From positions 52,485 through 112,234 of the forward strand of contig PXRR01000008.1 of the NCBI GenBank assembly GCA_003021975.1: DNA of 59,750 nt, given 5' to 3'. The translations under genes and the position numbers were made by a program. The first letter of the stretch is position 1. The number at the start of each line of letters is the position of its first letter. Of this stretch, positions 34,293 to 36,629 are shown piece after piece. The notes beneath the pieces were generated by a model. That model was given only the letters and a program-made list of their open reading frames with translations. It did no database searches and was not told where the DNA came from. Source of the stretch: Halobacteriales archaeon QS_5_70_17. GTDB taxonomy: Archaea > Halobacteriota > Halobacteria > Halobacteriales > Haloarculaceae.

Positions 34293-35155
34293 CCCGGCGC
34301 GAGGACTACGGCCTGCTCGACCAGGAGGCGGTCGAGGGAGTCGGCGACGAGTGGGAGCAGGTCGACGTCGAGGACACGGAGGCCGACACTATCGCGCGCC
34401 AGCAGGACCGGGAGTTCCTGGAGTTCCGCAAGCGCATCAAGGACTCCGAGGGGCTCAAGGTCGAGGCGTCGGTGTTCGACGACGCCACGTTCGCCGCCAT
34501 CTACAAGCTCGTCCAGGACGGCCACATCGAGGCCTTCGGCGGTCCCGTCTCGACGGGCAAGGAGGCCGCGGTCTACACCGCGCTCGGCCCGGAGGGGACG
34601 GTCGCGGTGAAGGTCTACCGCATCTCGGCCAGCGACTTCCGGCAGATGCGGGACTACCTCGACGGGGACCCCCGGTTCGAGGGGATCGGCAGCGACAAGA
34701 AGAAGGTCGTCCTCGCGTGGACGCGCAAGGAGTTCGCCAACCTCAACCGCGCTCGCGAGGCCGGCGTCCGGGTTCCGGAACCCATCGCCGTCGAACGCAA
34801 CGTCCTCGTGATGGAGTTCGTCGGGAGCGACGAGGGCCAGCGCGGCCGCCGGCTGGCGGAGGTCCACGTCGAGAACCCGGAGACCGCCTTCGAGGTCGTC
34901 CGGGAGTACGTCCGCCGGCTCTACGACGCCGGGCTGATCCACGGGGACCTCAGCGAGTACAACCTCGTCGTTCACGACGGCCAGCTGTACGTCATCGACC
35001 TCGGGCAGGCCGTCACCGTCCACCACCCCAGCTCCCGCGAGTTCCTCGAGCGGGACTGCCGGAACGTGGCGAAGTTCTTCGCCCGGCAGGGCGTCGACAC
35101 CTCCGGGGAAGAGCTGCTGGCGTACGTCACGAGCGAGGCGGATCCCGACCGCTGA
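34289..35155 (+). CDS. rio1: RIO-type serine kinase Rio1
   Basis: 288 aa atypical protein kinase acting in maturation of the small ribosomal subunit. Visible motifs: GPVSTGKEAAVYTAL (P-loop region), VAVKVYRI (Lys), LIHGDLSEYN (catalytic loop), VIDLGQAVTVHHP (metal Asp), and the C-terminal FLERDCRNVAKFF. The standard partner order eIF1A, nucleotidyltransferase, rio1, KH protein is here interrupted by trpS and a GNAT gene. Confidence 0.93.
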   Translation: MTRREDYGLLDQEAVEGVGDEWEQVDVEDTEADTIARQQDREFLEFRKRIKDSEGLKVEASVFDDATFAAIYKLVQDGHIEAFGGPVSTGKEAAVYTALGPEGTVAVKVYRISASDFRQMRDYLDGDPRFEGIGSDKKKVVLAWTRKEFANLNRAREAGVRVPEPIAVERNVLVMEFVGSDEGQRGRRLAEVHVENPETAFEVVREYVRRLYDAGLIHGDLSEYNLVVHDGQLYVIDLGQAVTVHHPSSREFLERDCRNVAKFFARQGVDTSGEELLAYVTSEADPDR

Positions 35156-35226
35156 CGGGGCGACCTCCCGCCCGTCGGGGTCGCCCTCGTCCCGTTCCCG
35201 TTTCCCGACCCCGGCCGGCGTCGGCG

Positions 35227-35242
35227 TGCGAAATCGTTTTTG
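35227..35242 (+). promoter_or_regulatory. promoter of the trpS leader
   Basis: A BRE-like GCGAAA followed by TCGTTTTTGG, the common haloarchaeal promoter pattern. Its T-run is centred about 28 bp before the GTG of the leader peptide at 35266, so transcription is expected to begin at or next to that GTG. Confidence 0.6.
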
Positions 35243-35265
35243 GGTCGCTCTCCCTTCGTTGGCCT

Positions 35266-35349
35266 GTGACACCCCTCCGCTGGCGGTGGCACTGGCGCCC
35301 GCTTCTCCCGCCAGCGGACAGTGCCAGTTCCGCGCGCACCGCGGCCTAA
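35266..35349 (+). CDS. trpL-like: Trp-rich leader peptide of trpS
   Basis: 27-codon frame, GTG start, TAA stop at 35347-35349, lying 80 bp upstream of the tryptophanyl-tRNA synthetase gene. It begins MTPLRWRWHWRPLLPP; TGG codons are at 35281, 35287 and 35293, giving three Trp within five residues. The promoter spacing implies a leaderless mRNA, so a ribosome could load directly on the 5' end. The same codons form the left arms of the hairpins at 35276-35326. Best explained as a tryptophan-sensing attenuator peptide: scarce charged tRNA-Trp would stall the ribosome here and change RNA folding ahead of trpS. Coding is not proven; no expression data are available to me. Confidence 0.65.
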   Translation: MTPLRWRWHWRPLLPPADSASSARTAA

Positions 35350-35360
35350 CCGCGCCGCGG
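35276..35360 (+). promoter_or_regulatory. alternative RNA hairpins in the trpS leader (putative attenuator)
   Basis: Hairpin 1 pairs 35276-35286 with 35308-35318 (11 bp, perfect). Hairpin 2 pairs 35287-35292 with 35321-35326 and 35293-35297 with 35309-35313; an alternative 8-bp pairing is 35287-35294 with 35319-35326. Hairpins 1 and 2 share 35309-35313, so they exclude each other, or the 8-bp version forms a pseudoknot with hairpin 1. Hairpin 3 pairs 35339-35345 with 35354-35360 and holds the leader stop codon in its loop. The left arms of hairpins 1 and 2 contain the Trp codons. A pyrimidine-rich stretch follows (35371-35400). Confidence 0.55.
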
Positions 35361-35429
35361 CGGGCCGGCGCTCCCTTCGCTCGGTTCTCCTCGTTCGTCC
35401 GCCGACCGCTCGCGACCAGAGTTCCACGT

Positions 35430-36629
35430 ATGCCCGACGACGCCGACCCGACAGCACCGATCGACCCGACCGAGACAGACGCGGGGCCCGACTACCGACG
35501 GCTCCTCGAGCGGTTCGGCGCCGACCCGCTGACCGACGACCAGCTCGCCCGCTTTCCCTCCCCGCCCCACCCGCTGCTCCGGCGAGGGGTCTACTACGCC
35601 GGCCGGGACGTCGACCGCCTGCTGGCGGCCGCCGAGCGCGGCGACCCCGTCTCCGTCGTCACCGGGGTCGGTCCCTCGGGGCCGATGCACCTCGGCCACG
35701 CCGTCACGTTCTACTTCGCGAAGTGGCTCCAGTCGGAACTGGGCGCGCACGTCTACGTGCCGCTGTCCGACGACGAGAAGTACCTCACCCGCGGGCAGGA
35801 CCTCCGGGAGACCCGCCGACACACCCGGGAGAACCTCCGGGACCTGCTGGCGGTCGGCTTCGACCCCGAGCGCACCCGGTTCGTGGTCGACACCGCCGAC
35901 GCCGACGTGGTCTACCCGCTCGCGACGGCGCTGGCGAAGGATCTCACGCCCGCGACCGTCGAAGCGGTCTACGGCGACCCGGGAAACGTCGGAGCGGGGT
36001 TCTACCCGGCCGTCCAGGCCGCCCACCTCCTGCTCCCGCAGTTCGTCCGGGGGCCCCACGCCACGACCGTCCCCGTCGCCGTCGACCAAGACCCCCACGT
36101 CCGTGTGGCCCGGGACGTGGCCGCCAAGGAGCGGTTCCCCGCCGAGAAGCCCGGCGCGCTGCTCGCGACCTTCCTCCCCGGGCTCGCCGGCCCGGGCAAG
36201 ATGTCCAGCAGCGAGGACGTCCCCCGGATCGAACTCACCGACGACCCGGAGGCGGTCCGGGCGACGGTTCGCGAGCACGCCTACTCCGGGGGCCGAGAGA
36301 GCCTCGACGCCCACCGCGAGCACGGCGGCGACCCGGCGGTCGACGTCGCCTTCCGGTATCTCCACGCGTTCTTCGAGGCGGACGACGCGACCGTCGCTCG
36401 CCTCGCCCGGGAGTACCGCTCGGGGGAGTTGCTCACCGGCGAACTCAAGGGGTACGCCGCCGATCGGATCGGCGAGTTCCTCGCGGCCCACCAGGAGCGC
36501 CGGCCGGAGGGCGACCTCCTGACTGCCCTGGAGCCGTACCGGCTGACCGGCGCCGAGCGCGAACGAGCGCTCGGCGCAGTCGGTCTCGGACCGGGGGTGG
36601 CGGACGCTCCCGCGGGACGCGAAGAGTGA
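35430..36629 (+). CDS. trpS: tryptophanyl-tRNA synthetase
   Basis: 399 aa class I aminoacyl-tRNA synthetase of the archaeal/eukaryotic TrpRS type. The HIGH-like motif is GPSGPMHLGHAV, followed by PLSDDEKYLTRG, GAGFYPAVQAAHLLLP, PVAVDQDPHVRVARDVA, and the KMSKS-like GPGKMSSSEDV. It charges tRNA-Trp. The ATG at 35430 (MPDDADPT) is preferred; no strong Shine-Dalgarno sequence precedes it. It sits in the middle of the ribosome-biogenesis cluster and has its own promoter and Trp-rich leader. Haloarchaea often carry two trpS genes; whether this strain has another cannot be seen. Confidence 0.92.
   Translation: MPDDADPTAPIDPTETDAGPDYRRLLERFGADPLTDDQLARFPSPPHPLLRRGVYYAGRDVDRLLAAAERGDPVSVVTGVGPSGPMHLGHAVTFYFAKWLQSELGAHVYVPLSDDEKYLTRGQDLRETRRHTRENLRDLLAVGFDPERTRFVVDTADADVVYPLATALAKDLTPATVEAVYGDPGNVGAGFYPAVQAAHLLLPQFVRGPHATTVPVAVDQDPHVRVARDVAAKERFPAEKPGALLATFLPGLAGPGKMSSSEDVPRIELTDDPEAVRATVREHAYSGGRESLDAHREHGGDPAVDVAFRYLHAFFEADDATVARLAREYRSGELLTGELKGYAADRIGEFLAAHQERRPEGDLLTALEPYRLTGAERERALGAVGLGPGVADAPAGREE

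Follow-up and report, generated by a model that had tools for sequence, protein, structure and literature searches.

A short reading frame with clustered tryptophan codons lies upstream of the tryptophanyl-tRNA synthetase (TrpRS) gene of the window, i.e. of the whole 59,750-nt stretch of DNA from Halobacteriales archaeon QS_5_70_17 that was analysed here. Together with a structured RNA element which overlaps it, this leader very probably forms a ribosome-mediated attenuator that senses by ribosome stalling; this is our best reading of the locus, its regulation and its response being inferred. The predicted leader, its Trp codons, the helices P1 and P2, the alternative helix AT and the promoter spacing are well supported by the comparison of related loci. 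What is inferred is that the ribosome stalls, in which direction the system responds, and that its output is termination. A ribosome-stall attenuator had already been proposed in the original prediction. The comparison supports this proposal, with the regulation itself and the transcriptional output remaining unproven: the support for stall sensing comes from an RNA switch made of three regions and from the spread of the element to trpS1, trpD and serS. Both the RNA switch and the spread to other genes go beyond what had been claimed.

The window contains the following features (trpS2 is the name used here for the TrpRS type NF008927).

35230 to 35241, plus strand: promoter with a BRE-like GAAA (35230-35233) and a TATA-like TTTTT (35237-35241), assigned from the sequence and from AT peaks in relatives.
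35266 to 35349, plus strand: putatively leaderless leader ORF MTPLRWRWHWRPLLPPADSASSARTAA of 27 codons, from the GTG start at 35266 to the TAA stop at 35347-35349.
35281 to 35295, plus strand: three in-frame TGG (Trp) codons at 35281-35283, 35287-35289 and 35293-35295, a cluster kept in 110 of 119 loci.
35275 to 35285, plus strand: region 1, the 5' arm of helix P1, which in the window's clade includes the first Trp codon (own-versus-other arm test).
35309 to 35319, plus strand: region 2, shared as the 3' arm of P1 and the 5' arm of the alternative helix AT.
35320 to 35372, plus strand: helix P2, formed by AGTGCC (35320-35325) and GGCGCT (35367-35372), with the leader stop codon inside it (RNAalifold, pair counts).
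35370 to 35392, plus strand: region 3, GCTCCCT and a pyrimidine-rich tail, present in 115 of 116 elements.
35378 to 35385, plus strand: part of region 3 able to pair with 35310-35316 of region 2 with one bulge (alternative-pairing tests).
35275 to 35378, plus strand: complete RNA element, matched by covariance model R1, which was built without the window (50.5 bits, E 1.3e-7).
35430 to 36629, plus strand: trpS2-type tryptophan--tRNA ligase gene with its ATG at 35430 (NF008927, 497.6 bits, above the cut-off).

On the window sequence the promoter, the GTG frame, the three TGG codons, the TAA and the start of trpS all lie where they had been predicted, and the downstream gene is a TrpRS gene as claimed. 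GAAA and TTTTT occupy -36 to -33 and -29 to -25 relative to 35266. A second model, R2, gave 36.5 bits on the window element. A single trpS2 copy was detected in the 73% complete genome from which the window comes, and no tRNA genes were found in the window.

The Trp cluster of this locus, taken alone, is only mildly unlikely by chance and is weak evidence. Among mini-ORFs of up to 45 codons that start with ATG or GTG, counted on both strands, the window has one in which three TGG fall within five codons, compared with 0.35 on average after mononucleotide shuffling (20 shuffles); two TGG within three codons occur in four such ORFs, compared with 8.55 after shuffling. For a single locus, the original prediction overstated how unlikely it is to meet three Trp codons in five by chance. 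The fold of the window leader was no better than that of shuffles (z -0.12), a result which is uninformative alone and counts against an attenuator. It is the conservation across trpS2-type loci, and not the window locus alone, that places the leader above chance.

For this comparison 119 trpS2-type loci were used. A search through 293 genomes of the order supplied 113 of them, and six are named loci, three of these having the same element sequence as other loci. At 110 of the 119 loci a leader ORF no longer than 45 codons has at least two Trp codons within seven. The original prediction had named the absence of a conserved Trp-rich frame from relatives as a refuting condition, and with this count it withstood that test. 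Six further loci carry one leader Trp codon together with the RNA element. At L110, L112 and L113 no RNA element was found; the element is present at the other 116 loci, 114 of them identified by a weight matrix and two (L107 and L114) by eye. Nine of the 119 loci fall short of two leader Trp codons, which counts against an attenuator. Among 15 control loci (ten of another trpS type and five trpS1 from genomes also carrying trpS2) one reached two clustered Trp codons.

Leaders of this kind occur in Halomarina halobia, Haloprofundus marisrubri and two Halegenticoccus, and on plasmids of Haloferax mediterranei, Haloferax larsenii and Natronorubrum aibiense. The leader of the first of these (strain ATCC 33500), MVSTSHANCWRWHAFREVDSIAV, is situated upstream of E6P09_RS17035 on pHME505. 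Plasmid copies of Natrinema zhouii, Natrinema sp. DC36 and Haloprofundus sp. MHR1 have the variant with one Trp codon, and no element was visible by inspection at two Halobaculum plasmid copies and one other-type Haladaptatus copy. Further haloarchaeal plasmid matches, outside this inspection, lie in XH8, in a second Haladaptatus and, as a fragment, in Halalkalicoccus. Two peculiar forms of the leader were also seen. At L042 a TGA replaces the second TGG of the relatives (MTTALEWQ*), the RNA element being intact. At L066, L088, L140, L141 and L144 the leader belongs to a subtype like VSTSxETxERRWR*, with a single Trp codon directly before the stop; this subtype occurs in second or plasmid copies.

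When 103 loci were aligned at the leader start codon, AT peaks appeared at -36 to -34, at -30 to -26 and at -11. Such peaks are absent from the 50 nt upstream of the main start in the same loci. The haloarchaeal promoter consensus is given as CGAAA / TTWT / WW (PMC4983044), and since the peaks match the BRE, TATA and -10 elements the transcripts most likely begin at the leader start codon and would be leaderless. This spacing backs the leaderless start that had been postulated for the window.

Data from Haloferax volcanii are available for comparison. Table 2 of a dRNA-seq study reports a 23-aa uORF (2743 Da, pI 5.4) in the 150-250 nt 5'-UTR of trpS HVO_A0127, where no second transcription start site (TSS) is marked at the main gene, and a 26-aa uORF upstream of pheS HVO_2948 (PMC4983044). 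The uORFs of this table are characterised by length, pI and mass only and their sequences are not printed; the term "attenuation" is absent from the main text, and the accessible part does not mention Trp or Phe codons (PMC4983044). Four distinct 23-aa leaders of Haloferax relatives have masses of 2625-2728 Da and pI values of 5.4-8.0, and none equals the uORF of the table. We infer that the HVO_A0127 uORF is the same kind of leader, with which these values are consistent without proving it. In the same table the SNF-family transporter HVO_A0165 also has a 23-aa uORF in a long 5'-UTR (PMC4983044).

The RNA element itself consists of a short series of paired regions. Region 1 (consensus GTCCGCTCYC) is located downstream of the leader start codon and begins at +5 in 85 of 112 leaders; in the window's clade it is shifted, so that the first Trp codon falls inside it. 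Region 2 (consensus GRGAGCGGAC) follows 3' of the Trp codons and pairs with region 1 to give P1. In 104 of 108 non-redundant loci the locus's own region 2 pairs better with the DNA upstream of it than differing regions 2 of other loci do. RNAalifold placed helix P2 immediately 3' of P1. Alignment A1 comprises 64 of 69 selected rows (L003, L081, L096, L099 and L109 were dropped). In A1 86.9% of the cells are paired, and there are 131 doubly changed cells versus 42.3 after shuffling, with none of 500 shuffles as high; pairs changed on both sides number 12 versus 8.2, with one of 500 as high. Controls with slid arms fail at 35-45% paired cells. In A4, with 42 hand-chosen rows from several gene contexts, 93.3% of the cells are paired and 77 are doubly changed (17.1 after shuffling, 0 of 500 as high). 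The rows of A4 that do not come from trpS2 lean towards P1 and P2, because they were found with a model already containing these helices. Region 3 (GCTC[AC]CT and the pyrimidine-rich tail) begins 49-72 nt after the start of region 2, and its motif occurs in 2.6% of control stretches.

Of the 108 loci with a good P1, 81 have a P1 loop whose length is divisible by three, so insertions there are mostly whole codons. Among the other 27 loops, 12 belong to leaders ending ...TVS*, seven to the window and six shifted-arm loci, and five to misplaced arms (L005, L020, L021, L022, L072), followed by L066, L096 and L099; the arm search misplaced L018 as well. Those 12 leaders read through region 2 in a different register, yet its nucleotide sequence is unchanged. 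Kept despite the other frame, region 2 is conserved as RNA and not as peptide. To judge from these alignments, the early part of the leader is kept as codons and region 2 is kept as RNA.

Region 2 is the common strand of two mutually exclusive helices, P1 (region 1 with 2) and AT (region 2 with 3), both of which show compensating changes. AT was assessed in 136 of 142 elements (L162, L163, L168, L170, L179 and L096 were dropped). At one of two fixed offsets, region 2 and the tail of region 3 form seven or eight of eight standard pairs in 123 of the 136. The observed mean was reached by none of 2000 permutations, and likewise by none when 105 unique combinations were used. The energy of the own AT was better than with shuffled tails in 114 of 136 elements; for the next 20 nt the figure was 65 of 136. 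In the own-versus-other comparison of arms AT does weakly, with 92 of 136 elements, and P1 reaches 133. The evidence for AT is weaker than that for P1. All pairing tests ignore the tree, and region 2 is additionally constrained by P1. An alternative helix between region 2 and the core of region 3 (GCTC[AC]CT) had also been considered; it fails by inspection in the AAGTG group, and the tail pairing was adopted.

In silico folding of 62 sequences with a ribosome footprint at the first Trp codon changed P1 from 0.74 to 0.02 and P2 from 0.59 to 0.85. Under this footprint region 3 was the partner of 438 of the 534 region 2 positions that were paired above 0.3. With the footprint at the leader stop codon P1 was 0.58 and P2 0.28, versus 0.74 and 0.59 without a ribosome, which counts against an attenuator. 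The folding was done at standard conditions, not at the high internal salt of these cells. Because the Trp codons sit at or between regions 1 and 2, a stalled ribosome would block P1 and free AT.

The element is not restricted to trpS2. Model R1 matched 134 of 293 genomes (E at most 0.01) and model R2 178 of 392 (E at most 1e-4), and in a phylum draw of 246 genomes the 15 matching genomes were all within this order. Strict filters were applied in these counts and in the draw, and weak matches were lost. We fetched 34 matches away from the collected trpS2 genes for their gene context. The other TrpRS type, trpS1, follows in 21 cases (BLAST for all 21, NF008928 for the one tested); the leaders have clustered Trp codons in 14 of these and a single Trp codon in the loop in seven, the latter counting against an attenuator. 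One match (L165 / L180) is situated upstream of trpD (TIGR01245) with the leader MLSAFRSWSWRWYRSGKRTVS, this being the sole Trp biosynthesis gene found with the element here. Upstream of intact serS genes (two matches, TIGR00414 for the one tested) the leader reads MESTSRSRSQSSFWEVDS... and Ser codons replace the Trp codons. Both genes, L167 and L169, are second copies in their genomes and encode auxiliary SerRS; one match (L166) precedes a serS copy that is broken by a stop (by eye).

The remaining contexts are GNAT acetyltransferases (four matches, three tested with Pfam), methyltransferases (two, one tested), an ABC exporter, a truncated trpS2 (by eye) and one match with no nameable gene downstream. 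Some of these other-context genes, as called, begin 150-400 nt after the start of the element. A further GNAT-like case was seen by eye at L197. The leaders of the GNAT, ABC exporter and methyltransferase loci (L155, L163, L164, L173, L197, L159, L160, L162) are without a clear codon cluster, which counts against an attenuator; these elements could respond to drug-stalled ribosomes. Twenty more matches in newly drawn genomes are located upstream of TrpRS genes of one type or the other, where the gene was nameable by eye. Among the R1 matches at E at most 0.01, the element was never seen upstream of both TrpRS types in one genome. The R2 matches in G278 and G596 (34 bits) look like chance, and the one in G171:C2 (L200, 29.5 bits) was dropped, no leader or element being visible at the match.

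A different-looking leader, for which the same logic may hold, precedes pheS (PheRS alpha). At least three Phe codons within eight are present in 25 of 43 loci (L262-L304), typically as MASEP...GFGFFF, and seven more pheS leaders were seen by eye in the other orientation. The 43 loci are not a random sample, since 14 were hand-chosen and 29 were among the best-scoring of 146 genomes. Region 1 of the pheS leader, CCGAAYCCC, is at +7 in 21 of the 25, and its partner strand holds the first Phe codon. In alignment A5, with 21 of the 25 rows, this helix has compensating changes: column pair 14-70 is CG in 13 rows, TA in seven and TG in one; 17-67 is CG in 15, GC in three and unpaired in three; 9-75 is CG in 19, GC in one and unpaired in one. 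A conserved downstream GAAACCG can pair with CGGTTTC. This second pairing is not established, because 15 of the 21 rows have a mismatch at one position.

From these observations the following course of events can be proposed for the Trp element. Transcription would begin at the leader start codon, so that the free 5' end could receive a ribosome, which translates the leader while RNA polymerase proceeds. With ample charged tRNA-Trp the ribosome would complete the leader and depart; P1 would form, leaving the pyrimidine-rich region 3 exposed, and premature termination would be favoured. With scarce charged tRNA-Trp the ribosome would stall at the Trp codons and cover region 1; region 2 would then pair with region 3 in AT, atop P2, region 3 would be masked and trpS would be transcribed.

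Provided that the switch is real, we lean slightly towards premature termination as its output. Intergenic termination in Haloferax takes place at T stretches ending at C, according to the accessible part of one study (PMC7237163), and some region 3 tails resemble such terminators. A run of at least three T was found in the tail of 75 of 136 elements versus 50 after shuffling; the window's own tail has no T run of three or more. A conserved 3:4 terminator hairpin was not found, a candidate third helix having own better than other arms in 64, 80 and 81 of 136 elements at three lengths; like the modest excess of T runs and their lack in the window, this counts against an attenuator. This third helix, 3' of P2, was rejected as weak in the own-versus-other test.

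The absence of a terminator hairpin and the weakness of the T runs leave room for a variant of our best explanation, with which its confidence overlaps. Stalling would be sensed in the same way, and the switch between P1 and AT would alter the stability or the translation of the trpS mRNA instead of termination. We regard this as possible but rather unlikely. Neither P1 nor AT reaches the trpS start, and in 112 of 116 loci the first TrpRS ATG follows region 3 at a variable distance of 34 to 92 nt. The last 20 nt upstream of the main start are rich in A and C and contain 17% G, so that there is little to sequester, and the resemblance of part of the tails to Haloferax terminators likewise speaks against this variant.

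Compensating changes together with sequence-conserved patches (AGT, GCTC, CTAACC) would also be expected of a riboswitch-like RNA that senses tryptophan or a protein directly, the Trp codons being incidental. This is improbable: the Trp codons keep the reading frame of the start codon even as the loop varies in length mostly by codons, they are replaced by Ser codons before serS, and Rfam, T-box included, gave no match up to E = 1 in 34900-36000. Still less probable is a leader acting as a functional small protein. Residues do recur, S-A near the start and ADS near the end, but they are encoded by regions 1 and 2, the latter part is in another frame in 12 loci, and the residues between the Trp codons are variable. 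For an arrest peptide of the TnaC type the criterion is not met for the same two reasons: the recurring non-cognate residues are products of the region 1 and region 2 sequences, and the 12 loci read the C-terminal half of the leader in another frame. Chance, or an N-terminal TrpRS extension, to which the 467-aa frame open from GTG 35226 in the ORF list would point, can be set aside given an own frame and structure conserved in 110 of 119 loci.

Leader-peptide attenuation is a textbook form of bacterial regulation, with trp and pheST of E. coli as examples. In the bacterial model of trp-type ribosome-mediated attenuation (PMC1183508), as proposed here, a leader ORF carries cognate codons, the position of the ribosome chooses between 1:2 and 2:3 pairing, and 2:3 pairing is the expected "on" state. 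Unlike the bacterial systems, the archaeal element is leaderless as predicted, with region 1 immediately behind the start codon and the regulatory codons mostly within the P1 loop, and it has no recognisable 3:4 terminator hairpin and no Rfam match. T-box leaders also sense tRNA charging before synthetase genes; they bind the tRNA directly and need no leader ORF. The haloarchaeal element, as a proposed charging sensor, shares with them the position before a synthetase gene and differs from them by its leader ORF and the lack of an Rfam match. An inducible auxiliary TrpRS of S. coelicolor has reportedly been described by Vecchione and Sello. The closest bacterial parallel is a candidate attenuator upstream of trpS2 of Streptomyces avermitilis (PMC1262725), where, as here, an additional TrpRS gene follows a leader with Trp codons; the classical attenuators of Streptomyces have an antiterminator and a poly-U terminator, unlike the haloarchaeal element. 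The Haloferax volcanii uORFs before trpS HVO_A0127 and pheS HVO_2948, in long 5'-UTRs with mapped TSS, are similar in arrangement (PMC4983044). No archaeal leader-peptide attenuator was among the matches listed in the open-licence literature, which covers few subscription papers. The Haloferax volcanii transcriptome paper, in its accessible part, drew the inference that structured leaders do not typically control translation in haloarchaea (PMC4983044). A tool paper mentions attenuation in passing as the mode of action of uORFs in bacteria, archaea and other organisms, its accessible part giving no example from archaea (PMC10219788), and the accessible part of a Haloferax volcanii translation study contains nothing on leader attenuation (PMC12482152).

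It seems fairly probable to us that these elements form a portable class of haloarchaeal ribosome-stall switches, in which one RNA chassis receives its input from the codons in the loop, the general mechanism resting on leaderless translation. The same reading, held with equal confidence, would assign Trp to trpS1, trpS2 and trpD, Ser to auxiliary serS and a Phe-codon leader to pheS, and the copies before GNAT, ABC exporter and methyltransferase genes may report drug-stalled ribosomes. If this is true, archaeal transcription and translation would communicate as in bacteria, and leaderless mRNAs would be able to carry attenuator-like switches, which is testable in Haloferax. The element would offer a codon-programmable sensor for archaeal genetics.
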